Under the pieces are notes generated by a model. That model was given only the letters and a program-made list of their open reading frames with translations. It was not told the DNA's origin and ran no database searches. Below are positions 5,714-60,832 of a stretch of DNA of 64,000 nucleotides, piece by piece. The DNA lies in contig NZ_LR733284.1 in assembly GCF_902506375.1 (NCBI RefSeq), positions 2,173,685-2,237,684 of the forward strand. The letters are read 5' to 3'. How positions within the stretch are numbered: the first letter of the stretch is position 1; each line of letters starts with the position of its first letter. The stretch comes from Microbacterium sp. 8M (GTDB lineage Bacteria; Actinomycetota; Actinomycetes; Actinomycetales; Microbacteriaceae). A program made the position numbers and the translations under genes.

Positions 5714-7138
5714 ATGTTCACCACCCCCGCCGACGTGCTCGCGTACATCCGCGAAAACGACGTCAAGTTCCTCGACATCCGCTTCACCGACCTGCCGGGC
5801 GTGCAGCAGCACTTCAACATCCCGGCATCGACGGTGGACGAGGACTTCTTCGTCAACGGTCAGCTCTTCGACGGCTCGTCGATCCGCGGGTTCGCGTCGA
5901 TCCACGAGTCCGACATGCAGCTCATCCCGGACGTGACCACGGCGTACGTGGACCCGTTCCGCGAGGCGAGCACGCTGGTCATGGTGTTCGACATCTACAA
6001 CCCCCGCACCGGCGAGATCTACACGAAGGACCCGCGTCAGGTCGCCAAGAACGCAGAGAAGTACCTCGCGTCGACCGGCATCGCCGATACGGCCTACTTC
6101 GCCCCCGAGGCCGAGTTCTACATCTTCGACGACGTCCGCTACTCGGTCACCGCCGGCGAGAGCTTCTACAAGGTCGACTCCGAGGAGGCCGCGTGGAACA
6201 CCGGTCGCGAGGAGGAGGGCGGCAACCTCGCCAACAAGACCCCGTACAAGGGCGGCTACTTCCCCGTCTCCCCCGTGGACAAGACCGCCGACCTGCGCGA
6301 CGACATCACCCTCAAGCTCATCGAGTCGGGCCTCATCCTCGAGCGCTCGCACCACGAGGTCGGCACCGCCGGTCAGCAGGAGATCAACTACCGCTTCGAC
6401 ACGATGGTGCACGCGGCCGATGACATCCTGAAGTTCAAGTACATCGTCAAGAACACCGCTGAGCTGTGGGGCAAGACCGCCACGTTCATGCCGAAGCCGC
6501 TGTTCGGCGACAACGGATCCGGCATGCACACCCACCAGTCGCTGTGGAACGACGGCAAGCCGCTGTTCTACGACGAGCAGGGTTACGGCGGCCTCAGCGA
6601 CATCGCGCGCTGGTACATCGGCGGCATCCTCAAGCACGCTCCGGCTGTGCTCGCCTTCACCAACCCCACGCTGAACAGCTACCACCGTCTGGTCAAGGGC
6701 TTCGAGGCGCCGGTCAACCTGGTGTACTCGGCCGGCAACCGCTCCGCGGCGATCCGCATCCCGATCACGGGTTCCAACCCGAAGGCCAAGCGCATCGAGT
6801 TCCGCGCGCCCGACGCCTCCGGCAACCCCTACCTCGCCTTCGCCGCGCAGCTGATGGCCGGCCTGGACGGCATCAAGAACCGCATCGAGCCGCACGAGCC
6901 GGTCGACAAGGACCTCTACGAGCTCCCGCCGGAGGAGGCCAAGGGCATCCCGCAGGTGCCGAACTCCCTGCTGGACTCCCTCGAGGCGCTCCGCGCCGAC
7001 CACGACTTCCTCCTCGAGGGCGGCGTGTTCACCGAAGAGCTCATCCAGACCTGGATCGACTACAAGTACGAGAAGGAGATCCTGCCGATCGCGCAGCGTC
7101 CCCACCCGTACGAGTACGAGCTCTACTACGGCGTGTAA
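5714..7138 (+). CDS. glnA: Glutamine synthetase type I (GlnA1)
   Basis: 474 aa, full family length. Visible hallmarks are [13 protein letters not shown], the metal and ATP ligand motif [12 protein letters not shown], the glutamate-binding region [12 protein letters not shown], and the ATP-binding [10 protein letters not shown]. Tyr of the DLYELPPEE loop, about residue 402, is the adenylylation site of the GSI-beta class, which fits with glnE being present in this window. AGGAG precedes the ATG. The last codons are the attachment site of element 1: the 3' end was rewritten by the phage but still encodes ELYYGV. The original terminator is now 38 kb away. Confidence 0.97.
7113..7125 (+). other. 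attL core of element 1 (within glnA1)
   Basis: AGTACGAGCTCTA inside the glnA1 codons for EYELY. The same 13 bases recur at 45251. After one differing base (C at 7126, T at 45264), TACGGCGT is again shared. The crossover replaced the last codons and stop of glnA1 with a phage-borne version that keeps the protein sequence. Confidence 0.88.
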
Positions 7139-7188: not shown

Positions 7189-7485
7189 TCAAGAACCCGC
7201 CTCAGCCTCACCCGGCTGGGGCGGGTTCTTTCGTGCTTGCATCAACGCGCGCTCGAGTTCCATAAAGCGGCTGCGGACGTCGGTGAGCGAAGCGACCGCC
7301 TCGTCGAGGTCAATCACCAACTCTCGGAGCTCCTCCGTCTCGCCGGAGAGCATCATGATCTTCCGCGCGTCGCTAATACTGGAGGACCGCATGGCTTTCA
7401 TGGTGGCGAGCGCGATACCTGTTCGATCCGCGGCACGTTCGAACGTGAGCAGTGCCAATTCGAGTCTCTGATCAATGCTCGCCAT
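7189..7485 (-). CDS. Small coiled-coil protein downstream of the integrase
   Basis: 98 aa from the ATG at 7485, preceded by GGAGGG nine bases upstream. A longer in-frame start at 7560 would lie deep inside the integrase gene. The start overlaps the integrase stop by 14 bp, so the two are translationally coupled. The sequence is mostly helical with heptad-like spacing (EELRELVIDLDEAVASLTDVRSRF in pieces) and no known motif. I do not recognise a family; a directionality or accessory factor role is possible but unsupported. Confidence 0.6.
   Translation of the reverse strand: MASIDQRLELALLTFERAADRTGIALATMKAMRSSSISDARKIMMLSGETEELRELVIDLDEAVASLTDVRSRFMELERALMQARKNPPQPGEAEAGS
7191..7230. terminator. 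Bidirectional terminator at the left end of element 1
   Basis: A perfect 11-bp stem has arms AAGAACCCGCC at 7191-7201 and GGCGGGTTCTT at 7220-7230, with a T-rich flank. It lies inside the last codons of the 98-aa gene and between it and convergent glnA1. It can stop transcription from both sides and so insulates the prophage from glnA1. Confidence 0.65.
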
Positions 7486-8557
7486 AAGAACCGTCCCTCC
7501 GGGATCGCCGTTCGTGTCTCTCGGCCAGGACGGCTTGGACCGCAGACCGTGACGACTCATCCCTGTCCGGCCACAAGTGCCCGTACGTGTCGAGGGTGGT
7601 CTTTGCCGAGGCGTGGCGTAGGCGTGCCTGCACGGTTTTGATGTCCAAACCGCTCGAAATTAGCAAGCTCGCGAAGTAGTGGCGGAGGTCGTGGATTCTG
7701 AAGTCGTCGGGAAGCCCCTCTACCCTGGCGCGAGCCACTCGCCATGCGGCTTCGATCGTGTACGGCGCGACTGGCCGGCCGAAGGCACCGACGACGATGG
7801 TGCTACTCCCCCATGCGACCCGGTTTGCATTCAGCATCACCGCGAGTTCCTTGGGAATCGGTATCGGGTTCTTCGATTCGTCTGTTTTCAGCGGCTCGGC
7901 CGGGTATTGGATCGCTGGAGTGATGATGCCACGCATGAAGTCGACATCGTCTACGCGTAGTGCCGCGATTTCAGCCACCCTGAGGCCGGCGAACGCTCCA
8001 AGAAGGACTACCGGCTTGAAGTGGTCCGGGAGGGAGTCGTGTAGCGCCCAGACCTGGTCAGTCGTGGCAACATACGGACGCTGCTTCGCGCCTCGCGGAG
8101 ACGTCCGACGAGAGCATGGATTCTTTGCTACAAGCCCATCGTGCATCGCGTCAGTGAACAGCTGCGAAAGCCGCGAGTGCAGGGCGTAGACGTACGACGT
8201 GGCGTAACCACGGCTAGCCAGACTCACGACCCACGCCTGCACCTCGGACGGCCTAACCGCTCGGAGCGGACGGTGACCTAAGTCCGCCTTGATTACGGCG
8301 AGATGCGTCCTCGCCTGCCGAACAGTCGAGAGCCGATTGCGTTCATAGCCACTAATCCAGGCGTCAGCCCACTCGCCAAGTGTTGTGCGGGCGCGTTGAG
8401 GCGCAACATGTGTACCCTGTGCGACGGAGGAGGCCTGCTCCACAAGCCATGCAGAGCCTTCTCGCTTGGTCTTGAAGTGCCTTGCGTGCTCTTTGCCTGC
8501 GTCGTCGCGGTAGCGCGCCCGCCAGACGCCATCAGGCCTCTGCTTGATGCTTGCCAT
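7472..8557 (-). CDS. int: Tyrosine recombinase / phage integrase (left)
   Basis: 361 aa. It has an N-terminal arm-binding part (MASIKQRPDGVWRARYRDD), a SAM-like core-binding domain (residues about 60-150), and a catalytic domain with AGLRVAEIAALR (Arg), HDLRHYFASLL (His-x-x-Arg), RLRHASAKTTL (His) and the Tyr nucleophile in LDTYGHLWPD. Its stop lies about 350 bp inside attL, the usual place for a phage integrase. Its start overlaps the repressor's end by 26 bp. The C-terminal part resembles the integrase remnant in element 2. Confidence 0.95.
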   Translation of the reverse strand: MASIKQRPDGVWRARYRDDAGKEHARHFKTKREGSAWLVEQASSVAQGTHVAPQRARTTLGEWADAWISGYERNRLSTVRQARTHLAVIKADLGHRPLRAVRPSEVQAWVVSLASRGYATSYVYALHSRLSQLFTDAMHDGLVAKNPCSRRTSPRGAKQRPYVATTDQVWALHDSLPDHFKPVVLLGAFAGLRVAEIAALRVDDVDFMRGIITPAIQYPAEPLKTDESKNPIPIPKELAVMLNANRVAWGSSTIVVGAFGRPVAPYTIEAAWRVARARVEGLPDDFRIHDLRHYFASLLISSGLDIKTVQARLRHASAKTTLDTYGHLWPDRDESSRSAVQAVLAERHERRSRRDGSYGEH

Positions 8558-14568: not shown

Positions 14569-15159
14569 TCAGGCCACGACGAAGATCTGGCCCGACTGAT
14601 GCACGCCGCCGTTGTTGCTCGTATTGCTCTCGCCGCCGGTCACTTCGAGGTTCATCTCGAAGGCGTACGACGTGTTGACCGGGCCGGCGACGACGTGCGC
14701 CCACCGGAAGTCATACTGACCGACGGGGACCGGGGCCATGAGGAACGTGTAGTAGTCGCGGCCCCCCTGCTGGAACGTGTTCACCAGTGTCCAGCCAGCG
14801 GATGCGCCGTTGTTGGGAAGCGCGAGCGTGGCCGTCGGGTCGTTGTTGACCGAGGGAACGCTGACCGTGATCTGCACGCTGGGTGCCGGATCGGGCCCGG
14901 CGCTCTGGAAGATCAGATCCGCCCATGGCGTCTGACCCCGCGCCACCTGAGTGGTGTTCGCCGTCGGTCCTGACACGTACACCAGGTCAAAGTTGAGGGT
15001 GACCGATGCGGACGCGAGAGGTGTCGCCGCCGCAGCGGCGATCACCGGGACGCTCCATGCCGCGCCCTTGACGAGGGTTCGGCGGTCGATGTGCTTGGTT
15101 CCCCCGACGCGAGGTGTCGTGCCCGTTGATCCGGCCGTGCTTCTTAGTTGGTTACTCAT
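14569..15159 (-). CDS. Tat-exported phage cargo protein, 196 aa
   Basis: ATG at 15159, with AGGGGAG upstream; in-frame starts further out lack such a site. The N-terminus has a twin-arginine motif (DRRTLVKGAAW) followed by a hydrophobic stretch and an ALASAS-type cleavage site at about residue 55. The mature part is beta-rich (VQITVSVPSVNNDPTATL...YDFRWAHVVAGPVN) like an immunoglobulin-like or conserved-repeat domain. The signal peptide is nearly the same as that of the repeat protein at 57216-58547 in element 2, while the mature domains differ. Probably a surface or secreted lysogenic-conversion protein. Confidence 0.72.
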   Translation of the reverse strand: MSNQLRSTAGSTGTTPRVGGTKHIDRRTLVKGAAWSVPVIAAAAATPLASASVTLNFDLVYVSGPTANTTQVARGQTPWADLIFQSAGPDPAPSVQITVSVPSVNNDPTATLALPNNGASAGWTLVNTFQQGGRDYYTFLMAPVPVGQYDFRWAHVVAGPVNTSYAFEMNLEVTGGESNTSNNGGVHQSGQIFVVA

Positions 15160-15405
15160 GTCTGCTCTCCCCTTGCTAGCGGGCACTGCCCGTCGTGTCT
15201 CGCGCAAAACCTTGGCATGTGACCGGGCACGGGTCGCGAGTCGCGCAGAAACTGGCACGTTCTCGGTCAATTTCTGCGCGGGTCGAGGCCGGCCTTCGGA
15301 GTCCCCGTAGCGTTCTGCGGGCGTGCTCGTCGTGCCCGCTGACATCAGCACTGCGCGGTCGTCGGGCGGGAGCATGTGATCGCTCCCGACGACAAGAGGA
15401 CTTGC

Positions 15406-15594
15406 ATGACTGCTCGGCGTGTATCCGTGAGTCAACGGCTGCGTGAGGGCCGGCGGCGTCGCCGTGCTCGGCGCAGCCGCCGCTACTATGAGGGGCCGAG
15501 CCCGCTGTTAACACGGATTTTACGCATCGCTGCGGGCGTGTTTGTTGTTGCCGGCGTCATACTGGCCGTGTACGCATTCTTCTTCTACCGCTAG
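15406..15594 (+). CDS. Small basic single-span membrane protein, 62 aa
   Basis: ATG at 15406 with AAGAGGA upstream. A strongly basic N-terminus (RLREGRRRRRARRSRR) is followed by one hydrophobic segment (LRIAAGVFVVAGVILAVYAF). It would sit in the membrane with the basic part inside. No family is recognised. It precedes the AraC regulator by 19 bp and may be co-transcribed. Confidence 0.6.
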   Translation: MTARRVSVSQRLREGRRRRRARRSRRYYEGPSPLLTRILRIAAGVFVVAGVILAVYAFFFYR

Positions 15595-17693: not shown

Positions 17694-17702
17694 TGCCAAC
17701 GA

Positions 17703-17744
17703 CGAAACCGCCCCGCCTCTCCGAAGAGAAGCGGGGCGGTTTCG
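17703..17744. terminator. Strong rho-independent terminator (one of three related copies)
   Basis: A 14-bp perfect stem has arms at 17703-17716 and 17731-17744, with a further small nested pairing in the loop, then a T-run (GTTTG). It is shared by the convergent 91-aa and protease genes. Close copies are at 59033-59070 and 60833-60870 in element 2. Confidence 0.9.
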
Positions 17745-17752
17745 TTTGCTGG

Positions 17753-18664
17753 TCAGCGAACGTTGTTTACTACGTTGATTACTGCAACTCCGCGGTGGTT
17801 CTCGATGATCTTGAATGCTGCCGTCTCCGTCAGCGTCTGTGAAGCTGCGTGATGGATCGCCAAGACCCTGTCCTGCAACTTCTGATCGTCCTCGAGAGCA
17901 GTTACCTTGATCCCGAGGCTCTTCGCCTTAGCTAGAGAGATGTGCCGGTTGTGGGCCAGGGTCAGCGCGTGGCTTCCAAGCTCTTCTACGATCTTCTTCG
18001 CACGTTGCTCACGCTCCGCGTCGCCGAGGTCCGCGAACATACGCGTCTGGAGCCACACAAGAACCATGTCCTTGGACCAGTCAATCGCCTTCTGAGCGAC
18101 GCCGATCAACGTTGGGTTGTACTTACCAATGATCGGCTGCCAAAGCGGAATGCATGCAGGATCCTTGCGGATCTCGTCTCGAGCACGCTCGAACTCCTCA
18201 ATAATCCCGTGCGCCGGGACTCCGCCGAGTTGGGGATCGATCGGTCCGAGACTCGACTGCTTACCCATCACGATTTCGTTCGCGGCGAGCGCCATCATCG
18301 TGCCGCAAGACATGGCCAGTTGCGGGACGATCACTCGGATGTCAGTGAACATCGTCCGCAAGTACTCAACTAGTGACTCACACGCCGCGATGTCGCCACC
18401 CGGTGTGTGCAGGATGAGGTCGAGCCCGTCGTCACGCTTCAGATTGTGAATCGTGCTCATGAAGCCGGTCTTGTCGCTGTCGTTGATGTCAACGCCACGC
18501 AGCCCCTGCTCGACGAGCGATTGCTTTTCGAGCCATCCCGAGTAGTAGATGATCACGTTCCGCCCGGTGTAGTCCGCGAGCTCCTTCAGGTAGGACCGCC
18601 GCACAACATCGTGGGGGCCACCGTTTTGCTGGATCGCGGTCTGGACGTCAGGCCAACTATTCAC
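17753..18664 (-). CDS. SDH-type/ClpP-fold serine protease (PF01972-like)
   Basis: 303 aa from a GTG start at 18664 that overlaps the upstream gene's stop by 8 bp. The motifs LILHTPGGDIAACESL, QLAMSCGTMMALAANEIVMG (nucleophile Ser119 candidate) and SLGPIDPQLGG match the serine-dehydrogenase-proteinase (SDH) branch of the ClpP/SppA fold. No signal peptide or membrane segment is visible, so it acts in the cytoplasm or at the membrane surface. The reading frame is intact. It sits in the cargo slot just before the lysis genes, where element 2 carries a Fic protein. A role in phage exclusion or host modulation is inference. Confidence 0.85.
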   Translation of the reverse strand: MNSWPDVQTAIQQNGGPHDVVRRSYLKELADYTGRNVIIYYSGWLEKQSLVEQGLRGVDINDSDKTGFMSTIHNLKRDDGLDLILHTPGGDIAACESLVEYLRTMFTDIRVIVPQLAMSCGTMMALAANEIVMGKQSSLGPIDPQLGGVPAHGIIEEFERARDEIRKDPACIPLWQPIIGKYNPTLIGVAQKAIDWSKDMVLVWLQTRMFADLGDAEREQRAKKIVEELGSHALTLAHNRHISLAKAKSLGIKVTALEDDQKLQDRVLAIHHAASQTLTETAAFKIIENHRGVAVINVVNNVR

Positions 18665-18845
18665 GCGGGCCAGTGTGGTTGGTACGGCTCACCTCAAAGA
18701 CGCGCGCGGGAGCGCCAGAGTTACTGAAGTACTGATAGCCCGTCGCGGGCAAGGTCGCCTGATTGAGCAGATCGAACGTCTCCTGGATCTCCGCGTCTGT
18801 CAGTCGTGTTGATCGATCGTGAAGAGTCGCAGACACCACAATCAC
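18657..18845 (-). CDS. 62-aa partner of the SDH-type protease
   Basis: GTG start at 18845 (IVVSATLHDRSTRLTDAEI), with no upstream ATG in frame before a stop. The stop TAG at 18657-18659 lies inside the protease start region, giving an 8-bp overlap and so translational coupling. The protein is a small alpha/beta domain with no motif I know. It could be a regulator, inhibitor or adaptor of the protease. Confidence 0.55.
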   Translation of the reverse strand: MIVVSATLHDRSTRLTDAEIQETFDLLNQATLPATGYQYFSNSGAPARVFEVSRTNHTGPRE

Positions 18846-18920
18846 CGTTCCATTCCAGTCCCGGATGGGTACGACTCAGACGAGCCCACCCACGCCACCC
18901 ATTGCGGTCATCATACACAG

Positions 18921-18942
18921 AATGTCAGGCGGGCCTGACATT
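18921..18942. promoter_or_regulatory. 22-bp palindrome between lysis genes and protease operon
   Basis: AATGTCAGGC at 18921-18930 and its exact inverse at 18933-18942, separated by GG. It lies 60 bp downstream of the last lysis gene (minus strand) and 75 bp upstream of the protease operon. It may be a terminator for the lysis genes or an operator for the protease pair; it has no proper T-run, which favours an operator slightly. Confidence 0.55.
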
Positions 18943-19001
18943 CCAACTGGCGCCAGCTTCTCGTGTTTGCGAAACGGGGGACGGCTCTGGACAGATGATG
19001 C

Positions 19002-19379
19002 TCAGCATGCGGCGCCCTTCTCGCCGATCTTCGCTCCGTCGAGCATGGCGCGGTACTGGCGTCGGGTCATCGGGACAGGGGTGCCGTCAAAGTCGGTGTG
19101 GATGATCGCGCCGGCCGGGGCAGACCCAGCGCCGAACTTCCTAAGCCACTGGTCGACGATGGGGATCGCCATCACGCGGGAGATCGCGGCGCTGATCGCG
19201 GCGAGCGTCGCGATCAGCGCGGTCAGCCACGCGACCGCGGGCCCGGGGAGGACGTCGGCGACCGCGGCGAGCACCTGCGGGGCCACCGTTACGAAGATGC
19301 CGAGCAGCGCTATGCCGGCGAGCACGACCTGCACGGCCGTGCGGATCCACCGCTGATTCGGGAACCAGATCCGGTTCAT
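19002..19379 (-). CDS. Holin-like membrane protein, 125 aa
   Basis: Two hydrophobic segments in the first 65 residues (AVQVVLAGIALLGIFVTVAP and VAWLTALIATLAAISAAIS), then a short soluble C-terminus. The position directly downstream of the endolysin and two further membrane proteins suggests a holin or antiholin. It would form or regulate the membrane lesion that releases the endolysin. No specific family is recognised. Confidence 0.65.
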   Translation of the reverse strand: MNRIWFPNQRWIRTAVQVVLAGIALLGIFVTVAPQVLAAVADVLPGPAVAWLTALIATLAAISAAISRVMAIPIVDQWLRKFGAGSAPAGAIIHTDFDGTPVPMTRRQYRAMLDGAKIGEKGAAC

Positions 19380-19386
19380 GATGCTC

Positions 19387-19767
19387 CTATCGGGGAAGGC
19401 CCTCGGGCCAGTCAGGAAGTGGGATGCCGTGCGCGGCCATGTGATCTCGCTGCACGCCGATGAACGCGCGGTAGCCGCGGTTCTCCTCGGTGAGGCTGTC
19501 GACCTTCGCCTCGAGCCGGTTCACGCGTTGGTCGTTCTCGTCCCGGTAGCGGCCGAGCTCTTCCTGCAGCTGGTCGATGAGCCGGTCCTGCGCGGTGCTC
19601 TCCGCGGTCGAGGCGGCCGCGACAGCGTTTGCCTCAGCCACGGCCGCTTCGCGGCGAGACTTCCGCTCGGCCGCCCAATAGCCACCGAGCGCGCCGATGA
19701 TCGCGGCGACGGGAACGAGCACGCCAGCGGTCGCCCCCAGGACGGCTACGAGGTCGTCCGGGTTCAT
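19387..19767 (-). CDS. Membrane protein with coiled coil, lysis cassette (holin/spanin-like)
   Basis: 126 aa from the ATG at 19767, which overlaps the preceding stop (ATGA). One N-terminal hydrophobic segment (VAVLGATAGVLVPVAAIIGALGGYW in part) precedes a long coiled coil (QDRLIDQLQEELGRYRDENDQRVNRLEAKVDSL in part). This layout is common for actinophage lysis-cassette membrane proteins. The element 2 counterpart (61219-61689) has a similar plan with two spans. Confidence 0.65.
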   Translation of the reverse strand: MNPDDLVAVLGATAGVLVPVAAIIGALGGYWAAERKSRREAAVAEANAVAAASTAESTAQDRLIDQLQEELGRYRDENDQRVNRLEAKVDSLTEENRGYRAFIGVQRDHMAAHGIPLPDWPEGLPR

Positions 19768-19925
19768 CCGGCCACCATCTGCCACACGCCGTCGACGACC
19801 ACGGCGAGAGCGAGCACGAGCGCCGAGAACGCGATCAGGATCGCGCTGTGGGACACCGGCCGTTGGCGCTTCTGCCCGTGCTGGATGTTCGACGGCCGCG
19901 AGCGCGCCCCGTCCTGCTCGTCCAT
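19764..19925 (-). CDS. 53-aa single-span membrane protein, lysis cassette
   Basis: A short gene between the endolysin and the coiled-coil protein. Its ATG at 19925 overlaps the endolysin TGA, and its TGA overlaps the next ATG (19767), so all three are coupled. The N-terminal 28 residues are polar (MDEQDGARSRPSN), the rest is one membrane span (AILIAFSALVLALAVVVDGV). In element 2 the same slot has shrunk to seven codons between the corresponding genes. It may be a small holin or antiholin. Confidence 0.65.
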   Translation of the reverse strand: MDEQDGARSRPSNIQHGQKRQRPVSHSAILIAFSALVLALAVVVDGVWQMVAG

Positions 19926-20680
19926 CACGACTGCAGGCGCTTCGCGAGCTCGTCGGCCACCTGCTTCGCCATGTCGTCGGGGATGGCGTCAGCGATCGCG
20001 GCCGCGACCTGCTGCGGGTCGATGGTGACGCCGGACGCTGCGGCCTGGATCTGGTTCAGGCGCTCCCAGACAGTCGGGCCGAGCTTCCAGTCCGCGCCGG
20101 CACCGTTCGGGCGCACGTCGAACTTCAGCGCGCGTTGAAGCATTGTCTTGAACGCGTCGTAATCACGGTTTGCATCGAGCATGTCGTCCTCCTCGGACAG
20201 TGAGACGCCGGCGGGGACCGGCAGGAAGATGTTCGGGAACTTGTAGTGCCAGGCCTCGCCGAAACTGAAGCCCTCGGGTTCCATGCCGTAGTCACCGGCA
20301 TGGGCGCGCAGCCACTCAGATCGGGCGGAGCCCATCGTGGCGATGCCCGCGTCCTCTCCGATGTCGCGCAGATCGACAGCACCGGCGGTGCCCTGGACTT
20401 CATGGTTCGAGGTCCCGGGCTGCGCGGCGGTGCCGGACGGGTCGTATCGGACGTAACGGACGCCCTGCCACCAGCGCACGTCCCCGAATGGGCCGTCGCC
20501 ATACGCCTGCGGGGTGTACGTGTCCAGGAAGATGTCAATCTGCTCCTGGTTGGTGCGGATCCCGGAAGTCACGAGCACCTCCACGCCGAACAGTCGGACC
20601 ATGTCTGCGCTCAACCGTCGGATCTGGTACGCCATGTAGGGCGTGAGCCGGGAACCGTCCCGCCACACGAAGTCGGTCAT
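19925..20680 (-). CDS. Endolysin, peptidase M15 (D-Ala-D-Ala carboxypeptidase/VanY-like)
   Basis: 251 aa from the ATG at 20680 with GAAAGGA upstream. The N-terminal 160 residues carry the metal-binding pattern SNHEVQG...VDLRD and EAWHYKF of M15 peptidases, which cut cell-wall peptide crosslinks. The C-terminal 90 residues (DYDAFKTMLQRALKFDVRP...WERLNQIQAAASG) probably bind the wall or fold with partners. A nearly identical gene is in element 2 (61709-62464). There is no signal peptide, so it needs a holin. Confidence 0.9.
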   Translation of the reverse strand: MTDFVWRDGSRLTPYMAYQIRRLSADMVRLFGVEVLVTSGIRTNQEQIDIFLDTYTPQAYGDGPFGDVRWWQGVRYVRYDPSGTAAQPGTSNHEVQGTAGAVDLRDIGEDAGIATMGSARSEWLRAHAGDYGMEPEGFSFGEAWHYKFPNIFLPVPAGVSLSEEDDMLDANRDYDAFKTMLQRALKFDVRPNGAGADWKLGPTVWERLNQIQAAASGVTIDPQQVAAAIADAIPDDMAKQVADELAKRLQS

Positions 20681-20707
20681 CAGGTGTCCTTTCGGGAGGA
20701 ACGACGA

Positions 20708-20769
20708 AGCCCCCGCCGAGTGGCGAGGGCTAGGAACGACGAAGGCCCCCACCTTTCAGTGAGGGCCCT
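20708..20769. terminator. Two hairpins between tail region and endolysin
   Basis: AGCCCCCGCC...GGCGAGGGCT (about 20708-20732) and GGCCCCCAC (20744-20752) with GTGAGGGCC (20759-20767). They lie between the Tat-exported protein gene (stop 20814) and the endolysin start, and may end tail transcription. Confidence 0.55.
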
Positions 20770-20813: not shown

Positions 20814-21506
20814 TCAAGTGGGCCAGCTGACAATCTCCGTGTTCACGGTGACGTCTGCTCTGTTGTCGGTACCGGTCGAGTCGGTCACCAGCGACAGCAT
20901 CCTGAAGGACAGCTTCCCGTAGGGACTGGAGCTTCCCGGATACCAAAGGTCCGGCGCCCAGGGTGCGTCGAATCCGTAGGTCAGCGGGAGTTCGATCACG
21001 TCGCCAGGCATGATCGTCTCCTGCCATGTGTAGTAGTAGGAGTCCCGATCTTCGGGGAACAGCCCCTTCATGAGAGAGCCCCGAACGGTTCCGTTCACCC
21101 GGACGTTGGCGACGTCGACGAGGAATTTCGGCCACGCGAATTGTGTCATGCCGGTGCGCGCCGCACCGGATCCGCCTCCCGCTGCGACGACGTACGGCGT
21201 GGTCTTCTGCGCTCCTGGCACGAACGGATCCGGTCCGGTGTACGTCACCACTGCCCAACTCGGAAGGTTGCCGTCGCTCGTGACCCCGTACCCACTCCAC
21301 ATTGTCGGGACGACGACGCTGAAGTCCTCGAACACGACTGTGAAGTTGAACGCAGGCGTAGGCGGAACGCTCGAGGCCGCCAACGGCACGGCAACTGCCT
21401 TTTGCACGACCGGCGTGCTCCAGGCAAGCGCCGCCGCCACTGGAGTTGCTGCCGCACCAATCAACAGAGCACGACGCCCAACGCTAGATCCCCCGGTGTC
21501 TGACAT
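20814..21506 (-). CDS. Tat-exported phage protein, 230 aa
   Basis: ATG at 21506 preceded by a G-rich Shine-Dalgarno-like run. Twin-arginine signal GRRALLIGAAATPVAAALAW with a following hydrophobic stretch; predicted cleavage near residue 45. The mature part (FNFTVVFEDFSVVVPTMW...) is beta-rich, ending in VTVNTEIVSW. It is between the LamG-like tail gene and the endolysin, so it may be lysogenic cargo or a virion-associated protein. It does not share the signal type of the protein at 14569. Confidence 0.68.
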   Translation of the reverse strand: MSDTGGSSVGRRALLIGAAATPVAAALAWSTPVVQKAVAVPLAASSVPPTPAFNFTVVFEDFSVVVPTMWSGYGVTSDGNLPSWAVVTYTGPDPFVPGAQKTTPYVVAAGGGSGAARTGMTQFAWPKFLVDVANVRVNGTVRGSLMKGLFPEDRDSYYYTWQETIMPGDVIELPLTYGFDAPWAPDLWYPGSSSPYGKLSFRMLSLVTDSTGTDNRADVTVNTEIVSWPT

Positions 21507-21600
21507 GCCCCCAACCCTAGTCACCGATCGCGTCGTGCTTCAGTCGCGTGCGCCTCGGCAGATGGACCGCTCGAATCTGCTCGACCCGCGCTAGTCACAA

Positions 21601-26799: not shown

Positions 26800-28767
26800 C
26801 TAGCTGCGCAGTAGCGCGTTCAGCTTGTTCGCCGCGACCTGCCCGATCGTCTCCTCGGACATGCCCTCGGACGGCTGCACGATGAGCTGCACGCCACCCT
26901 GGCCGCTACCGCCGATGCCCTCCTCGAGTGCACGGTTCAGCAGCCCGGTGTCGACGACGGACTCGGGGCGGCCGGCCTCGGCGAGCACGGCGAGCGTGCC
27001 GCCCGGCTTGGGGAGCACGGTCGCGCCCTGCGCCAGGTGCGGGATCTTGCCGACATTGAAGTCGATCGCCCCGCCGGTCACGTCCGAGACGAAGTTGCCG
27101 ACCTCGTTCAGCGACCCGAGGAACCCGTTGATCAGGTCGATCATCGAGTTGATGACGCCCTTACCGATGTCGAGGATCCCGTTCCACAGACCGGAGAAGA
27201 TCTGCACGATCCCGTTCCACGCCTGCTCCCAGTTGCCGGTGAACACACCGGTGAGGAAGGTGATCACTCCGCCGAGCACGTCGACGAGCATGTTCACGAT
27301 CGGGAGCAGCAGAGACGAGATGGCGTTCACGACGCCCTCGATGATCGGGATGACCGCCTGGATCACCGCCGCCAGGATCGGGAAGATCGCGGAGATCAGC
27401 TGCATCAGCGGATCCAGGAGCGGCGTCACTGCGGTGAGGATCTGCCCGATCAGCCCGGCGAGCATCGTGATCAGCGGTAGCAGCGGTGGCAGCACCGTGG
27501 CGAGGAACTCGGAGAACACGCCGACGAGGGTCTGCAGCACCGGCAGCAGCGCCGAGATCACGGTCTGCAGTGCCGGCCCGAGGGCCGCCATGATGTCCGG
27601 GAGCAGAGGCTGGATGGCCTTGAAGATCAGGCCCAGCGGGCTGAGATAGCCGAGCAGCTCCCCGAACTGGGAGAAGTCCATGTCGGCGGTGAGCGAGTTG
27701 ATCCACTCCATGCCCTGACCGAGCAGGTTGAAGATCGCCGACCCGATCGGCTCGATCGCCGTCAGCGCCCGGTTCTTGAACACCTGCCACTGCTCAGCGA
27801 AGTCGGCGGTCTCCGCCGCGGTGCCGAGGATCGTGTCCCCGGTGGCGCCGACGGCGGCCTGCATGTCCTGCAGGTTCACGACCCCGGACTGCAGCGCCCC
27901 GACGAACTGTGCGGCGCCGCGGGTGCCGAAGATCTGCGATGCGAGGTCGAGCGCGGCGGTCGTGTTGCCCTGATCGACGAACGCCTGCATCTCGCCGGTG
28001 ACGCGCTGGAACGCGGCCTGCGGTTCCTCGCCGTCCTTCGCGAGGGTGACGAGCCCCTTCGACAGGGACGCCATCACCTGCTGGCTGTTCAGGCCCGCCT
28101 TGTCCAGCGAGCCGAGCAACGCGACCGAGTCCTGGAAGGAGAAGCCGAGGTTCTGCAGCGCCGGCGCCGCGGCCTGGACCCCCGAGGCGAGCTCGTTCAT
28201 GCCGACGCCGGTCGCCTGCGACACCTGGAACAGGTTGTCCATCGCGCCCGAGACGGCGTCGCCCTCGATCTTGAAGGCGTTGAACGCGGCCGATGTGGCG
28301 TTGATGTCGACGTCCTGGCCGAGGATGTGCCCGGCCTCGAGGTACTGCGACGCGACCGTCGTCAGCGTCTCCCCGGTGAGCCCGAGCCGGGTGTTCAGAT
28401 CCGCGACGGCCGGGCCGATCTTGTCGAACTCGACGGGGACGTTCTGGCCGACGTTCTTCGCGACCTGCACGAGCCCTTCGAGCTCGGCTCCCTGCGCGCC
28501 CGTTCCGACACGGATCGTGTCCGTGACGTCGTCGAAGATCGACCCGACCTCGTACAGTCCCTTGAACGCTCCGACGACGGCGGTGCCGATGGCGGCGACG
28601 CCCAGGGCGCCCTTGAGGCCGGCGGTGAAGCCGGCCCCCGAGCGTTTCCCGGATTCCGCTGCGGCGGACTCGGCGCCGCCGAGCTCGCTGGCGAGGGTGT
28701 CCTGGATGCCTTCGACGGTCGGGACCAGACGGATCCACGCGGTTGCGAGCTCGACGCCGTCAGCCAT
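26800..28767 (-). CDS. Tape measure protein
   Basis: 655 aa, mostly helical with Gly/Ala-rich N-terminus (AESGKRSGAGFTAGLKGALG), a TMP core (VAKNVGQNVPVEFDKIGPAVADLN, GLNSQQVMASLSKGLVTLAKDG in part), and a long hydrophobic region (residues about 370-520) of the sort inserted into membranes during DNA entry. It is directly downstream of the frameshifted chaperones, which is the conserved order. The length predicts a tail of about 100 nm by the usual 0.15 nm per residue rule. Confidence 0.92.
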   Translation of the reverse strand: MADGVELATAWIRLVPTVEGIQDTLASELGGAESAAAESGKRSGAGFTAGLKGALGVAAIGTAVVGAFKGLYEVGSIFDDVTDTIRVGTGAQGAELEGLVQVAKNVGQNVPVEFDKIGPAVADLNTRLGLTGETLTTVASQYLEAGHILGQDVDINATSAAFNAFKIEGDAVSGAMDNLFQVSQATGVGMNELASGVQAAAPALQNLGFSFQDSVALLGSLDKAGLNSQQVMASLSKGLVTLAKDGEEPQAAFQRVTGEMQAFVDQGNTTAALDLASQIFGTRGAAQFVGALQSGVVNLQDMQAAVGATGDTILGTAAETADFAEQWQVFKNRALTAIEPIGSAIFNLLGQGMEWINSLTADMDFSQFGELLGYLSPLGLIFKAIQPLLPDIMAALGPALQTVISALLPVLQTLVGVFSEFLATVLPPLLPLITMLAGLIGQILTAVTPLLDPLMQLISAIFPILAAVIQAVIPIIEGVVNAISSLLLPIVNMLVDVLGGVITFLTGVFTGNWEQAWNGIVQIFSGLWNGILDIGKGVINSMIDLINGFLGSLNEVGNFVSDVTGGAIDFNVGKIPHLAQGATVLPKPGGTLAVLAEAGRPESVVDTGLLNRALEEGIGGSGQGGVQLIVQPSEGMSEETIGQVAANKLNALLRS

Positions 28768-32083: not shown

Positions 32084-33388
32084 TCAGGACGCGATCGTCG
32101 CCTTGACGAACGCCTTCGGGCGGGTCACGCCGAACGCGACCCGCTCCTCGCCGAGCACGGCGACGAGGTTGCGGATGAAGAAGTCCGCGTGCGAGTCGGT
32201 CGCGGTGATCGACGCCTGCTCGCGATCCCACAGGACGGCCTTGGAGAAGTCGCCGATGAGCGCGGTCTTCACGGCGATCGCCTCGGACTCCACGATCGGC
32301 AGACCCCACACGGTGGGGATGTTCGCGTTCGCGAACGGTCCGGGGCCGTAGAACTGGCCGTCGCCCGAGGTGGGCTTGGACAGGTCGAGTGCCTCGACGT
32401 CCTCCGGGTTCATCAGGATGCCGTTCGGGATGACGCGGCCGACGGTGCGGACCTTCGTCTTCGCCTTGCGGATCGTGGTGAGCATGTCGGTGACGAGCGC
32501 CTGCGTCTGGATGCCGGAGGTCTGCAGGATGCCGGTCAGGTTCTCACCGGTGCCGTCACCGTTGAGGATCTGGTCCTCTTCCTCCTCCGCCAGGTCGGCG
32601 CGCAGCTCGTCGTCGATCAGGCCGCGCAGCTGCTTCGCGTCGGCGAGACCGCGCTTGGTGGCCGGCACCCACTCGGCGATCGTCTTCACGGTCGCGGTGA
32701 CCTTCTGGAACGCGAGCGTCCCCTCCGGCTTGTACCCGCCGCCGGCGGCCGGGACGAGGGCGCCCGCGGTGCCCGGTGCGGTCGGGGCGGCGGCCGTGGT
32801 GGCCTCCGGGACCGGCGCGGCGCTGGACAGCTGCGTCGTCTGCTGCACGAACTCGACCGTGTCCGACTCGGTCTGGCGGACCGAGATCAGGTCACGGAGG
32901 GTGAGCGGGCGGCGGCCGAGCAGCTCGAGGATGCCGGTGACGTCCGTCGGCACGAACGCGCCACGGGAGGTGTCCGACGCTCCGGTGATGAGCGCCTTAA
33001 CGCCCATCGGCTGCGACTGAACACGGGCCTTCTCGTTGATCTGGCCGCCGTGGAACTGGCCCATCAGGCCCTTGTACTCGGCGGACTCGATGAACATCTG
33101 GCCGATGCTCTTCAGCTTCGTCGGCTGACGGTACGAGTCGGCCTTGGCCTTCTCGCCGTCCGGGGTGCGCTCGAGGCCGAGGTCGAACCCGATCGCATCG
33201 AGCGCGGCCTTGACGTCCGCGGACGCCTGGCCCTTCTCGAACTCGGCCTTTGCGTCCTCGTACGCCTTGATGTGGGTGCTGGCCTGAGCGACCTCGTCGG
33301 GGGTCAGGTCGCGACCCTCCGCCTCGGCCTTCGCAGCGATGTCGCGGGCGGCCTTCAGCTCGGCCCGCATCTTCTCCTTGGGGTCCAT
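32084..33388 (-). CDS. Major capsid protein, HK97 fold
   Basis: 434 aa. The N-terminal 110 residues are a charged coiled-coil scaffold-like delta domain (RAELKAARDIAAKAEAEGRDL), followed by an HK97-fold body (PTDVTGILELLGRRPLTLRDLISVRQTES, GILMNPEDVEALDLSKPTSGDGQFYG). The prohead protease upstream cuts off the delta domain. Full family length. Confidence 0.92.
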   Translation of the reverse strand: MDPKEKMRAELKAARDIAAKAEAEGRDLTPDEVAQASTHIKAYEDAKAEFEKGQASADVKAALDAIGFDLGLERTPDGEKAKADSYRQPTKLKSIGQMFIESAEYKGLMGQFHGGQINEKARVQSQPMGVKALITGASDTSRGAFVPTDVTGILELLGRRPLTLRDLISVRQTESDTVEFVQQTTQLSSAAPVPEATTAAAPTAPGTAGALVPAAGGGYKPEGTLAFQKVTATVKTIAEWVPATKRGLADAKQLRGLIDDELRADLAEEEEDQILNGDGTGENLTGILQTSGIQTQALVTDMLTTIRKAKTKVRTVGRVIPNGILMNPEDVEALDLSKPTSGDGQFYGPGPFANANIPTVWGLPIVESEAIAVKTALIGDFSKAVLWDREQASITATDSHADFFIRNLVAVLGEERVAFGVTRPKAFVKATIAS

Positions 33389-33404
33389 CGCGGATCCTTT
33401 CGTT

Positions 33405-34184
33405 TCAGAGGTTCCCGAGCTCGCACCGTGCGAGCTCGATTCGGAGACAGGTGAGGGCGGACGGGCTGACGCGCAGATCGTCCGACTTGACCCCGTCCGG
33501 GCCCTCGTCGTTGATCCCCGCTTGACCGACGGCCTTCGGTTCCTGGTTGCCTGCCTCGAGCTGAGACAGGACGCTCTTGAGGTCGGCGACCGTGACGCCG
33601 AGGGTGTCGACCACGGCGCGCAGCGTTTCCTCGTTCTTGGCGGACAGCACGCGTCCGGCCTTCACGCCGTCGAGCAGTGCGTCGACGGCGGACTTCACGG
33701 CGACGACCGAGGTGTCGCGGTTCGCGCCGATCGGGACGAAGCTGAACTCGAACACCTCGAGGTCGCGCAACTCGTTCGCCTTCGTGCCGTCGTCGAGCTG
33801 CACCTGCCCCTCGTCGAGGGTGTCGAACGCGAACGACAGCTCGCGCAGCCTGCCCGACTTCACGAGCCGGTACGTCTGCGGTCCCTTCGGTGAGTCCATG
33901 TCGAACATGCCGCGCACGCGCCACCCGTGGTCGTCCTCGGACTCCTCGGTCGCGCCGGCGACGAAGTAGTCTGGATCGTCCAGGCGGTGCCCGTACAGGC
34001 CCGGCAGGCTGATCCCTGCCTCCTTCCGTGCCGCGATGCCGCGCGCGAACGCGCCCTTCGCGACGACGTCGCCGTAGCTGTCGGGCGTGCGGGTGAACGT
34101 GGACGGGTAGACGATGAACTCGCCCTCGGCGAGGCCGTCGTCGGGGCCGGCCTTGAAGCTGACCGGCAGGCTCTTGATCTTCAC
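33405..34184 (-). CDS. Prohead protease (HK97 family)
   Basis: 259 aa from the GTG at 34184, preceded by GGGAG. The core GEFIVYPSTFTRTPDSYGDVVAKGAFARGI, LYGHRLDDPDYFVAG (catalytic His in GH) and RLRELSFAFDTLD (Ser in ELSF) match the peptidase S78 maturation proteases. It processes the capsid protein during head assembly. It sits between portal and capsid in the standard order. Confidence 0.9.
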   Translation of the reverse strand: MKIKSLPVSFKAGPDDGLAEGEFIVYPSTFTRTPDSYGDVVAKGAFARGIAARKEAGISLPGLYGHRLDDPDYFVAGATEESEDDHGWRVRGMFDMDSPKGPQTYRLVKSGRLRELSFAFDTLDEGQVQLDDGTKANELRDLEVFEFSFVPIGANRDTSVVAVKSAVDALLDGVKAGRVLSAKNEETLRAVVDTLGVTVADLKSVLSQLEAGNQEPKAVGQAGINDEGPDGVKSDDLRVSPSALTCLRIELARCELGNL

Positions 34185-34194
34185 GACAAGCTCC

Positions 34195-36144
34195 CTATTC
34201 GAAGTTGATCTGGACGGTGCAGGAGCACCCGGCGACCTCGTCGACGTCCAGCGCCGAGGAGTCCCCCGGCCACTTCGCGCCGTTGCTGAACACGGAATCG
34301 ATGGGAACCGTCTCGCCCGCCATCTGGGCGTGCGAGGCGCGCGGGTTGCCGGAGGTGACGACCCACGTCTTCGTCGCGCCGCGCTGTCCGCGGACCTGCT
34401 GAACTGCCTCGACCGACGCGAAACCGGCGAGCGTCGTGGCGAGCGTCTGCCCGCCCTGCTGCGCCCGCGCCGTCTTCGCGACGTCGAACACATGCCCGAC
34501 AGCGTCCGGGTCGTCGTCGGATTCGAGGGCGGTTTCCAGCGCCGCCTCGGTCGCCGCGTTGATGCTCGTCGCGTTCGCGTCAGCGACGGTGCGCATCCAC
34601 GCCATCGTCCGGTCGACGTCGTACTCGTCCGGGTCTACGCCGAGCTGCTCGAGCTGCTTCCGCGCGACATCCAGCGTGATGGACGACGAGAGCGCGAGCA
34701 GCGCGCCGCCGAGCTCCTTGTCCCAGCGAGCACCGTCCCACCACCCCGCGGCTTTCGCGCCGAGCGCCGAACGCACGGAACGCTCCTGCCGGGCGAAGAA
34801 CTCGGCGAGCACCTGCGCGGCCTTCGCGCTCTGCGCCGCCGACGGCCGCGCCTTCGTCTTCAGACGAGCGATCAGCGCCTTGGCTTCGTCCTCCGTCGGG
34901 ACGGAACCGCCCCCGGATCCGGCCGGGACCTGATCCGTCGGCGACGCGAGTCCGCCCACCAGCACGTTCAGCGGTACGACGAGCTCGTCGGCGCCGTCGA
35001 TGCGGGGCAGGTTCAGCCGTGCGCGTGCCTCGTTCCGGGTGAGGAACGGGGCGCCGACCGAGGTCTGCAGCTGCGACGCCTGCTCCTCGAACGAGCCGCG
35101 CAGCTTCTCGAGCATGTTGAACTCGACGTACAGGCTGTCGGCGTCGTCGGGGAACTCGGCGCGGATGAGCTGCAGGTAGATCTCCTGCTGCACCTCCTGC
35201 AGGATCGGCCCGAGCGTGTCCTGGTAGAGCATCTTGTGCTGCTCTTCGATGTTCCCGAACGTGGCGTTGTCGAGGATGCCGACCATCGGCGGCGGGATGA
35301 AGTACGCCGACGCTGCCTCCTCGCGGGAGAGCTTGCGCGACTCGATGTACTGCATGTCCGCAGCGGAATGGCCGGCGGCGACGAACGTCATGCCGTCCTC
35401 GAGGACCGGTGTCCCGCCGCCCTCGGTCGCGGTCTGCCCGGTGTACTGGGCGCGCCACCCGGTCGCGAAGCGCTCGCGTGCGGGATCAGACCATGCCGGC
35501 GCGTCCCCGGGGCGCTGGATGTAACCGCCGATGCGGGCGCCGTTGCGCAGCGACTGCTCGCGCATCTGGCCGGCGGCGAACTCCTCCGACAGGATCCGAC
35601 GCAGCGACTCGATCGGTGAGAGCCCGTACCGCTCGTCCTCCGGGTTGTAGCCGCGGAAGTAGACGCAGCTCTCAGCGGGGATCTTCGTGGATCCGCGGTT
35701 GCCTTTGATCACGAACCCGCTGGGCGAGAGCCAGTTGTCGTCGTCGTCGATCTTCCACAGACGCGGCGGGATCCGCGTGAGCGCCATCCCCGACTTCTCC
35801 CGAGTCTTCACCCAGAGCGCGCGGTCGTAGATGCCGCGGTCGGCGATCAGGTCGCGGATGAGGCGGTACCCGGTCGTGTACGGGTTCGGGGAGCGCATGA
35901 GCTGCGCGAACGGATGATCGGTGATGCGGCGGCGGTCACTGTCGTCGATGCGCTCGAACGTGTGCAGCGACAGCTGGGCGATGTTGCGGGCGAGGAAGTC
36001 GACGACGGTGCGCACGCTCTGCTGCCTGCGGTACAGCTCGGCGTAGTCCATCGACAGGTCATCGCTCAGCCGCAGCGTCGACGGCGCCTGGTAGGACGGC
36101 TTCTGGACGGCGCGGAGCGTTCCCTCGGAGACAGCGAAGACCAT
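34195..36144 (-). CDS. Portal protein fused to a MuF-like head morphogenesis domain
   Basis: 649 aa. Residues 1 to about 400 are an HK97-type portal (SVRTVVDFLARNIAQLSLHTF, YFRGYNPEDERYGLSPIESLR, FIPPPMVGILDNATFGNIEEQHKMLYQDTLGPIL). Residues of about 430-649 have the Mu gpF features: long helices and the C-terminal TWVVTSGNPRASHAQMAGETVPIDSVFSNG...PGDS. In most phages these are separate adjacent genes; here one frame encodes both with no stop. Portal is the DNA gate of the head; MuF is a minor head or injected protein. Confidence 0.9.
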   Translation of the reverse strand: MVFAVSEGTLRAVQKPSYQAPSTLRLSDDLSMDYAELYRRQQSVRTVVDFLARNIAQLSLHTFERIDDSDRRRITDHPFAQLMRSPNPYTTGYRLIRDLIADRGIYDRALWVKTREKSGMALTRIPPRLWKIDDDDNWLSPSGFVIKGNRGSTKIPAESCVYFRGYNPEDERYGLSPIESLRRILSEEFAAGQMREQSLRNGARIGGYIQRPGDAPAWSDPARERFATGWRAQYTGQTATEGGGTPVLEDGMTFVAAGHSAADMQYIESRKLSREEAASAYFIPPPMVGILDNATFGNIEEQHKMLYQDTLGPILQEVQQEIYLQLIRAEFPDDADSLYVEFNMLEKLRGSFEEQASQLQTSVGAPFLTRNEARARLNLPRIDGADELVVPLNVLVGGLASPTDQVPAGSGGGSVPTEDEAKALIARLKTKARPSAAQSAKAAQVLAEFFARQERSVRSALGAKAAGWWDGARWDKELGGALLALSSSITLDVARKQLEQLGVDPDEYDVDRTMAWMRTVADANATSINAATEAALETALESDDDPDAVGHVFDVAKTARAQQGGQTLATTLAGFASVEAVQQVRGQRGATKTWVVTSGNPRASHAQMAGETVPIDSVFSNGAKWPGDSSALDVDEVAGCSCTVQINFE

Positions 36145-36157
36145 CGTCTGCTCCTTC

Positions 36158-36367
36158 CTACGGCGCCTGCACGAACAGGACCCGTGCTCGGTCGATGACG
36201 GTGTCGCCGTCGAGCGGCGCCGGCTCTGCGCCAGGCTCGTGATAGATCGCGTTCTTCAGCACGAGGAGGTTCCCGGGGTCGCGGTACAGCACCCCTTCGA
36301 TCGAAGAGCCGTCGTCGAGATTCACGACCACCCGGCGCAGCAGCAGCACCTTCCGGAATGCGCCCAC
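36158..36367 (-). CDS. Small phage protein, beta-barrel-like, 69 aa
   Basis: KVLLLRRVVVNLDDGSSIEGVLYRDPGNLLVLKNAIYHE has the alternating pattern of a small Sm-like barrel. It lies between the terminase and portal genes. No function is known to me; small genes of this sort are common at this place in actinophages. Confidence 0.68.
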   Translation of the reverse strand: MGAFRKVLLLRRVVVNLDDGSSIEGVLYRDPGNLLVLKNAIYHEPGAEPAPLDGDTVIDRARVLFVQAP

Positions 36368-36382
36368 GTCGGGCCCCCTCTC

Positions 36383-57215: not shown

Positions 57216-58547
57216 TCAGCAGACGAGCTGGTGCGTGTAGGTCACGATCGGGTAGGTGCCTTCGTAGAGGTGCACATCCGCGCTCGTCACTGCGACGTCG
57301 AGGACGATCGGCGCGTTTGCTCCGGCGTTGTAGTAGACCAGCTGGCCGTCCGGGGCGAGGAAGGTGGCGTGGCCGACGACCGCAGAGTTTGAGGGGACCC
57401 CCGTTGCCGTCTGATACGTCCCGTTGATCACGTCGTAGACCGCGGGGATGCCGGTAGTCACGTAGGTCACATAGGGCTGGGTGCCGCCGTATAGGGCCGT
57501 TGTTGCGCTGGAGACCCCGGAACTGACGACGACCGCGGTGTTGGTGGCTGCTCGGAAGACATAGAGCATTCCATCGGGGGTGAGGTACGTGGCGTGTCCA
57601 ACGGCGGTGGATCCGGCTGGGACTCCCGTCGCGGTGACGAAGCTAGCCGTCGCCGCGTTGTACGCCATCGCCGTACCGTTGGAGACGTAGGTCACCACGG
57701 GCTGGGTTCCGTTGAGGAGCGCCACCTTAGCGCTCGAGACTCCGGAGCCGATGAGCACCGATGTGTTCGCCCCCGAGTTGAAGTAGTACAGATCGCCGTT
57801 CGGCGCGAGGAACGTCCCATGGCCGACGACCGTGGAGCCGTTCGGGATCCCAGCGGCGGTAATCGTGGTCCCAGTCGCGACGTCTTGCACCATCGCGATC
57901 CCACCGGACACGTACGTGGCGTAAGACTGAGTTCCCCCGACGAGGACGGTAGTGCCGCTACTCACGTCGGTGGCGAGAGGCATCGCGACGCCTGCGCCGG
58001 TGTTGAAGTACACGAGGTTACCGTCACCCGTCAGGTACGTGCCGTGCCCGACAGCGACAGATCCGAGCGGAATCCCGGTGGCCGGCGGGTTCTCAGTGGA
58101 AACGACGTTGTAGATCTTCGCGCCGACCTGGGCTGTCACGGTCACTGGAGCTGTCGCGTTCGCTCCAGGGATGGAGCCGCTCAGCGTGACAGAGGCGTCG
58201 CCGTTGACGGCAGTAATGGCGGGAAGCACAACCCTGCCGTTCTGATCGGTCGTGAACGTGCGTGCACCGGTGAAGCCGTCGGCCCACTTAAGACCGCTCG
58301 GAAGCAGGATGGTCACTGTCGTGCTCGCGGCTGGCGTTGTCCCGTTCGTCGTCGCCGCGAGCGTCACGTTGGTGAGATCGCCGCAGCCGCCCACGCTGTA
58401 CGGCCCGTTGACGAACGTCAGAGTCGGCGCTGCAGCAGAGGCACTCGCCAGAGGAGTGGCGGCCGCAGCAGCGATCACGGGAACAGACCAGATGGCCCCT
58501 TTCGTAACGGTGCGACGAGATAGCTTCACTTCTTGGTCAGGGGACAA
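57216..58547 (-). CDS. Tat-exported surface protein with four ~74-aa repeats
   Basis: 443 aa from a TTG at 58547, chosen for its AAGGAG six bases upstream; GTG at 58529 is an alternative. Twin-arginine signal SRRTVTKGAIW then ALASAS-type cleavage, nearly the same as the protein at 14569. An Ig-like domain (TTVTILLPSGLKWADG) is followed by four repeats with the consensus GVP.GS.VVGH.T.L.PDG.L.Y and SGVSS....L..GTQP.VTYV. The repeats look like beta-propeller or adhesin blades. A conversion gene likely displayed on the lysogen surface. Confidence 0.72.
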   Translation of the reverse strand: MSPDQEVKLSRRTVTKGAIWSVPVIAAAAATPLASASAAAPTLTFVNGPYSVGGCGDLTNVTLAATTNGTTPAASTTVTILLPSGLKWADGFTGARTFTTDQNGRVVLPAITAVNGDASVTLSGSIPGANATAPVTVTAQVGAKIYNVVSTENPPATGIPLGSVAVGHGTYLTGDGNLVYFNTGAGVAMPLATDVSSGTTVLVGGTQSYATYVSGGIAMVQDVATGTTITAAGIPNGSTVVGHGTFLAPNGDLYYFNSGANTSVLIGSGVSSAKVALLNGTQPVVTYVSNGTAMAYNAATASFVTATGVPAGSTAVGHATYLTPDGMLYVFRAATNTAVVVSSGVSSATTALYGGTQPYVTYVTTGIPAVYDVINGTYQTATGVPSNSAVVGHATFLAPDGQLVYYNAGANAPIVLDVAVTSADVHLYEGTYPIVTYTHQLVC

Positions 58548-59023: not shown

Positions 59024-59032
59024 TCCCAACGA

Positions 59033-59070
59033 CGAAACCGCCCTGCCTCTCGAAGAGAAGCGGGGCGGTT
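59033..59070. terminator. Terminator, second copy
   Basis: Same design as at 17703-17744 but with one mismatch in the stem (CCCTGC). Lies nine bases after the 91-aa pseudogene, as in element 1. Confidence 0.78.
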
Positions 59071-60514: not shown

Positions 60515-60525
60515 CTGCAACCACC

Positions 60526-60810: not shown

Positions 60811-60832
60811 GACTACGACAGGCACTGAACGA

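Follow-up and report, generated by a model that had tools for sequence, protein, structure and literature searches.

A ClpP-fold serine protease carried by mobile elements and the small protein gene that adjoins it

Is a small open reading frame (ORF) that overlaps the start of a phage-borne serine protease gene a genuine partner of that enzyme, and what might such a pair do? The question is raised by a locus of Microbacterium sp. 8M that lies within a window of 64,000 nucleotides (nt), the whole stretch of DNA analysed here, which carries two prophage-like elements with the gene pair in element 1. From the letters and ORFs alone, an earlier annotation (the sequence-only reading) had proposed that a stand-alone SDH-type protease and a coupled protein of 62 amino acids (aa) form an exclusion or toxin-type system, with the small protein as regulator or inhibitor. 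The comparisons reported below indicate that the protease and the small protein almost certainly constitute a functional pair, which is probably a weapon or shield that is held in check. Both ORFs were found on the minus strand as annotated, including the claimed overlap of 8 base pairs (18657-18664) between the start of the protease gene and the end of the partner gene:

17753-18664, minus strand: SDH-type serine protease with a ClpP fold, 303 aa, GTG start (PF01972, phrog_11747, AlphaFold model)
18657-18845, minus strand: partner protein, 62 aa, GTG start (ORF with a Humibacter homologue)

Results

A small ORF adjoins the protease across the family

The phylogenetic tree comprised 86 distinct proteases and left out loci L011, L023 and L106, the divergent loci L107 and L109-L118, and L141, L174 and L179 at contig edges. 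A small ORF adjoins the protease in all 84 cases with readable flanks, just upstream in 74 and just downstream in ten, with the choice of ORF made partly by hand. A six-frame reading of 105 loci, which predates the discovery of the downstream ORFs, gave an upstream small ORF in 98, corresponding to 71 distinct proteins; its end falls anywhere from 76 nt ahead of the protease start to 59 nt past it. The seven loci without a pick are four contig ends (L009, L047, L061 and L063), two broken proteases (L011 and L023) and L012. Where several ORFs were possible the partner was picked by hand (27 named loci), the start codon taken was the one giving a length closest to 66 aa, a rule that partly accounts for the range of 55-73 aa, and the poor upstream picks include L010, L049, L057 and L103. 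Under a strict rule that admits only an ATG ORF of 50-75 aa ending within -80 to +60 nt of the gene start, 67 of 72 distinct protease genes possess such an ORF, compared with 87 of 234 control ORFs of at least 200 aa in the same loci. The five failures are the window and L040, whose partners start with GTG, L012, whose partner is downstream, and L011 and L023, in which the protease frame is interrupted. Partner genes are annotated in public records of Shewanella (p14), Acidiphilium (FE249_RS19235), Klebsiella (QYQ77_RS26130) and Porphyromonas (a 112-aa gene), and for one partner, each of its 14 relatives was on a contig that the protease had already brought to light.

The ten distinct proteases that lack an upstream candidate each have an ORF of 56-85 aa immediately downstream, about 5-50 nt from the protease stop or slightly overlapping it, and in L176 and L186 this ORF is on the opposite strand. 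These proteases form one clade (Shimodaira-Hasegawa-like support 99), corresponding to one switch of side in the history that the tree describes. That the small gene swaps side and strand yet stays adjacent argues for a partner protein rather than a leader. Inspection of the protein ends of the 86 proteases revealed no natural fusion of partner and protease.

The partner is under purifying selection and shares sequence motifs

The partner homologue in Humibacter (L005) has 67 aa and is 44% identical over 59 aligned residues, while the Humibacter and window proteases are 72% identical, with the synonymous rate (dS) saturated for this comparison. Among 25 pairs of related loci, which are not independent of each other, the ratio of nonsynonymous to synonymous rates (dN/dS) of the partner could be measured in 20 and ranged from 0.04 to 0.24; the dN of the partner exceeded that of the protease in all 25. 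Selection on the downstream ORFs is clear in the pair L183/L205 (dN/dS about 0.10) and weak in L171/L183 (about 0.65), and two further pairs are saturated. The small frame, on whose conservation the sequence-only reading had staked its proposal, is thus conserved, being under purifying selection and constantly adjacent to the protease.

Two motifs were recovered from the partners by expectation-maximization (EM) searches:

18759-18788, minus strand: helix motif IQETFDLLNQ (family motif IxxxFxxLG[IL]; EM motif)
18669-18692, minus strand: C-terminal Ser/Thr-rich motif VSRTNHTG (EM motif on C-terminal halves)

An unsupervised search of 51 partner clusters identified IxxxFxxLG[IL] with a score of 223, compared with 142-162 in eight shuffled sets. 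When clusters were held out, 19 of 51 reached p<=0.05 (about 2.6 expected) and 11 of 51 reached p<=0.01 (about 0.5 expected); the window partner had a held-out p of 0.005 and ranked first among the nine ORFs of the window stretch. In a leave-one-out ranking, with all ORFs of 40-110 aa in a locus as the pool, the upstream partner took first place in 17 of 47 loci, where 2.1 would be expected, and was within the top quarter in 28. Applied to the ten downstream loci, which hold 14-48 ORFs each, the motif trained on upstream partners placed the adjacent ORF first in six and second in two; in L206 and L209 it fell below the top four, and the downstream ORF of L209 resembles that of L206 by eye. A common helix is well supported in one part of the family, to which the branch of the window belongs, and unproven in the rest. 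The C-terminal motif (score 168.6 versus 130.8-138.2 in eight shuffles; window held-out p 0.03) is weaker than the helix motif, being detected in 14 of 51 clusters at p 0.05.

Modelled alone, the partner forms one helix (residues 17-26) and is otherwise unstructured, at low confidence (predicted local distance difference test (pLDDT) 65.8; predicted template modelling score (pTM) 0.28). A profile built from 44 partners contained no stretch conserved enough for a scan of the collection. The protease frame is broken and the partner frame whole in two loci, L011 and L023, and the converse, a broken partner beside a whole protease, was not observed in any of the 84. In L023, an Enterobacter plasmid record, the protease frame is in pieces (about 6001-6843), which may reflect decay or sequencing error.

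The protease has a ClpP fold and invariant candidate catalytic residues

The 303-aa protein scores above the cut-off of the Pfam family SDH_protease PF01972 (104.1 bits, cut-off 31.3; E 8.9e-30), and its residues 18-299 match phrog_11747, a PHROG family of unknown function (E 9.2e-94). It reaches 114.9 bits with NCBIfam Clp_like_SDH (NF047768), under the equivalog cut-off of 250, and 20.8 bits with the Clp protease S14 family PF00574 (cut-off 20.2) over residues 69-130 only. The AlphaFold model (mean pLDDT 94.5; pTM 0.90) matches ClpP chains with a best VIA-align Z of 14.3 (root mean square deviation 3.1 over 171 residues), and a Foldseek search with it also returned ClpP matches, with SppA among the rows. 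A sequence search of the PDB found no solved structure of the family, the best match being ClpP (E 6.8e-05). The nearest viral models in BFVD, also by Foldseek, are giant-virus proteins named serine dehydrogenase proteinase, several of them in one virus (Hyperionvirus).

Six residues are invariant in all 86 distinct relatives: Ser119, Asp143, His238, Lys285 and the pair Gly89-Gly90. Ser119, whose motif the sequence-only reading had seen in the window, is therefore kept throughout, and three of the residues are candidates for the catalytic machinery:

18308-18310, minus strand: Ser119, likely nucleophile
18236-18238, minus strand: Asp143, candidate catalytic residue by conservation
17951-17953, minus strand: His238, candidate catalytic residue by conservation

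The triad of SDH_protease runs Ser, Asp, His according to the family description, and S119, D143 and H238, chosen by conservation, follow the same order. Judged by its fold and conserved residues, the protein is an SDH-type serine protease of the ClpP fold and is presumably active.

A perfect inverted repeat lies upstream of the pair

The palindrome noted earlier upstream of the pair consists of two perfect 11-nt arms around 2 nt:

18920-18943, no strand assigned: perfect inverted repeat, arms 11+2+11, 75 nt upstream of the partner gene; hairpin or operator

Its pattern matches once in the window and not at all in 100 shuffles, and its 18-nt core occurs at a single place in the genome. Perfect inverted repeats with arms of at least 8 nt were found within 200 nt upstream of 14 of 68 partners, compared with 17 of 475 mononucleotide shuffles. 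The window hairpin does not stand out in its folding once composition is taken into account (z -1.35; 19 of 200 shuffles fold equally well), and a search near the palindrome found no sigma-70-like promoter. Since several of the repeats upstream of partners resemble terminators in having tails of A and T, insulation of the cassette by a hairpin is no less likely than an operator function.

The pair is sporadic mobile cargo

Full-length relatives of the protease were found in seven of 50,697 phage records, namely five near-identical Porphyromonas prophages, a Mu-like phage of Shewanella and Gordonia phage BeeGee. Among plasmids, 5 of 38 matching records cover at least 80% of the protease query, and ten genome contigs carry full-length relatives, including Methanosarcinales, Methanomicrobiaceae, Bathyarchaeota, Halobellus and Metallosphaera. 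Two scans of viral contigs, with 80 stretches kept from each and overlapping sets, gave full-length relatives in 153 of 180 and 124 of 173 stretches. The protease matched 3 of 150 genomes of its own family and 10 of 396 of its phylum (six of the ten belonging to a divergent sister group); in another phylum, to which a Methylocystis genome belongs, it matched 4 of 398. One genome in each of these counts was a known carrier from the outset. This low and sporadic incidence points to cargo rather than to a housekeeping gene, the alternative that the earlier proposal had set against itself, and the window genome holds a single copy. A DNA search with the Klebsiella pair, which distant relatives would escape, gave no match in 20,395 E. 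coli records. In five loci of the phylum of the window (L113-L117), divergent sister SDH proteases have upstream ORFs of their own, several with a similar Tyr-Leu-rich helix, and the pairing may therefore be wider than phrog_11747.

The pair occurs in other prophages, one of the two settings in which the sequence-only reading suggested looking for it, and also in phages, plasmids and archaeal genomes; the other setting, defence islands, was not seen among the best 25 of 91 neighbour families. The commonest family among the neighbouring ORFs examined (136 of 191) was integrase (13 of 136), followed by HNH nucleases, lysis genes and Q antiterminators, which are the usual positions of morons; methyltransferases of all kinds accounted for 2 of 136. 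PADLOC models recognized neither the protease, the partner nor the 91-aa neighbour of the window pair at E values up to 1.

Elements 1 and 2 carry different cargo in the same slot

Element 1 includes the following genes and features:

7472-8557: integrase of element 1
36383-38104, minus strand: terminase
34195-36144, minus strand: portal
32084-33388, minus strand: capsid
26800-28767, minus strand: tape measure
19925-20752, minus strand: VanY-type lysin in the lysis region beside the slot (VanY E 1.5e-05)
19002-19379 and 19387-19785, minus strand: two small membrane-type ORFs of the lysis region (19002-20752)
17698-17741, plus strand: terminator-like stretch of 44 nt at the far end of the cassette, with further copies in element 2

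On the minus strand, the structural genes are followed by the lysin, the membrane-type ORFs, the 62-aa gene and the protease; past the protease lie the terminator-like stretch and then plus-strand genes (a 91-aa gene and SRAP). The lysis-region genes are putative holin and endolysin genes. The two elements have in common SRAP (91.6%), the 91-aa gene with the terminator (92.9%) and the lysin (94.9%). Between the 91-aa gene and the lysin, element 1 carries the pair and element 2 a Fic-domain protein (59357-60520), as the sequence-only reading had seen, and these near-identical flanks around differing content support the picture of a cargo slot.

Further observations concern the rest of the window. 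The 44-nt terminator-like stretch is present three times (17698-17741, 59027-59070 and approximately 60828-60870), and its copies in element 2 flank the Fic gene on both sides, as if they were edges of exchangeable cargo. A Tat-like leader with SVPVIAAAAATPLA or a close form occurs in three predicted proteins (14569-15435, 20814-21524 and 57216-58547), and the two of them that were scanned had no PHROG family.

Discussion

The pair is most likely a mobile module resembling toxin-antitoxin systems, and the mechanism favoured here is one of restraint. Both genes would form one mobile module; the partner, produced first and beside the protease, would bind it through the amphipathic helix and the extended C-terminal stretch that carry the two motifs. 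The partner would thereby keep the protease inactive, like an antitoxin or a propeptide-like inhibitor, allowing a prophage to carry a protease that would be harmful to the cell if left unrestrained. Were the partner lost, for example on infection by another phage, the protease could then be released to cleave proteins of the host or the phage and so halt the infection. Binding, inhibition, toxicity and exclusion by the pair are all inferred, and the probability that the small protein holds the protease inactive is put at about 0.45. The complete scenario is more tentative and, taken as a whole, somewhat unlikely: a mobile immunity or addiction system of bacteria, archaea and viruses, in which a disordered inhibitor of 55-75 aa silences a ClpP-fold protease and is lost or outcompeted on infection, proteolysis is the defence effector, and the inhibitor gene has changed sides at least once.

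The two broken proteases with whole partners, and the lack of a reverse case among the 84, fit an inhibitor. Several results weigh against this explanation. The broken-protease loci are too few, and one of the two (L023) possibly owes its state to sequencing errors; no Pfam family of antitoxin or DNA-binding domains was found in the partner below E 0.1; and only some members of the family show the helix motif clearly. Downstream partners on the opposite strand, as in L176 and L186, would be unusual for a co-regulated inhibitor, and no enrichment of defence genes was seen among the best 25 of 91 neighbour families.

Restraint is ranked here as the simplest mechanism, and an adaptor accounts for the data nearly as well. 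The small protein would in that case act as an adaptor or activator that targets a phage or host protein to the protease, the complex excluding phages and being non-toxic in itself. The adjacency and selection data fit such a role equally, a fast-evolving partner beside a conserved protease suits a recognition part in an arms race, and ClpP-fold proteases, which the model matches, commonly require a partner for substrate selection. However, the partner is very short and mostly unstructured when modelled alone, and Pfam revealed no substrate-binding domain in it, and on balance this explanation is unlikely.

It is improbable that the small protein is the substrate of the protease, its cleavage releasing a peptide signal or altering prophage expression, for example in the choice between lysogeny and lysis. 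The extended Ser/Thr-rich tail with its common motif could be a cleavage site, and regulators or Q antiterminators lie near the pair in some loci, but the pair is also present outside phage regulatory contexts, on archaeal and bacterial chromosomes and on plasmids. A function in morphogenesis or lysis, as a prohead protease with a scaffold-like small protein or as a lysis helper, is very improbable. It would agree with the weak similarity of the protease to head maturation proteases (phrog_53, E 8.4e-07), with the Porphyromonas copy among head and neck genes and with the lysis genes adjoining the window copy; against it stand the varying neighbours in different phages, with integrase the commonest, and the copies in chromosomes and plasmids. 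For the window copy a prohead protease was rejected, as the pair is not between portal and capsid and lies beyond the lysis genes, far from the portal, capsid and terminase genes (32084-38104). A role of the small ORF as nothing more than a leader or translational coupler of the protease, as the overlapping or closely spaced (<=80 nt) stop and start in most upstream pairs might suggest, is hardly credible and was ruled out by the ten proteases with a downstream small ORF, two of them on the other strand, and by purifying selection on the sequence of the small protein.

If the favoured explanation is correct, a phage protease family filed under 'function unknown' has an obligate small partner for which the family libraries searched have no entry, mobile elements carry the two genes in bacteria and archaea alike, and a proteolytic effector could join the known weapons or shields of prophages. 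Annotation often misses the partner genes, since they are short and diverse, and the side-swapping clade argues cleanly that they are real.

Comparison with known systems

The protease family is already known by name, whereas the small partner falls into no family of Pfam, PHROGs, NCBIfam or PADLOC at a meaningful E-value. No report on the protease-partner pair was found in titles and the openings of abstracts, a scope without most subscription papers or bioRxiv. The window protease belongs to SDH_protease PF01972 by score and shares its ClpP fold, but with approximately 300 aa it carries a helical extension and has a small travelling partner. It is likewise a member of phrog_11747, which records only the protease, its small partner being outside any PHROG family. 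ClpP, SppA and prohead proteases resemble it in fold and have a Ser in the same neighbourhood; it differs from them in the Ser-Asp-His order of its candidate residues and in the absence, within the window, of an ATPase partner gene, a membrane anchor and a head context.

Exclusion or abortive-infection morons of prophages, such as CarolAnn gp43-44 and Sbash gp30-31, are also two-gene prophage cargo, in Actinomycetota and others; to our knowledge, these are not ClpP-fold proteases. From type II toxin-antitoxin systems the pair differs in that no antitoxin or DNA-binding domain is known in the small partner, and a ClpP-fold protease as the toxin of a type II pair would, as far as we know, be unusual. 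The likeness to these systems lies in a small partner next to an enzyme, overlapping genes, a swappable order and a sporadic occurrence as mobile cargo. Swapped gene order and gene overlap are common in toxin-antitoxin pairs, and their trait of adjacent, co-conserved genes, one of them small, is displayed by the protease and its partner in 84 of 84 readable loci.
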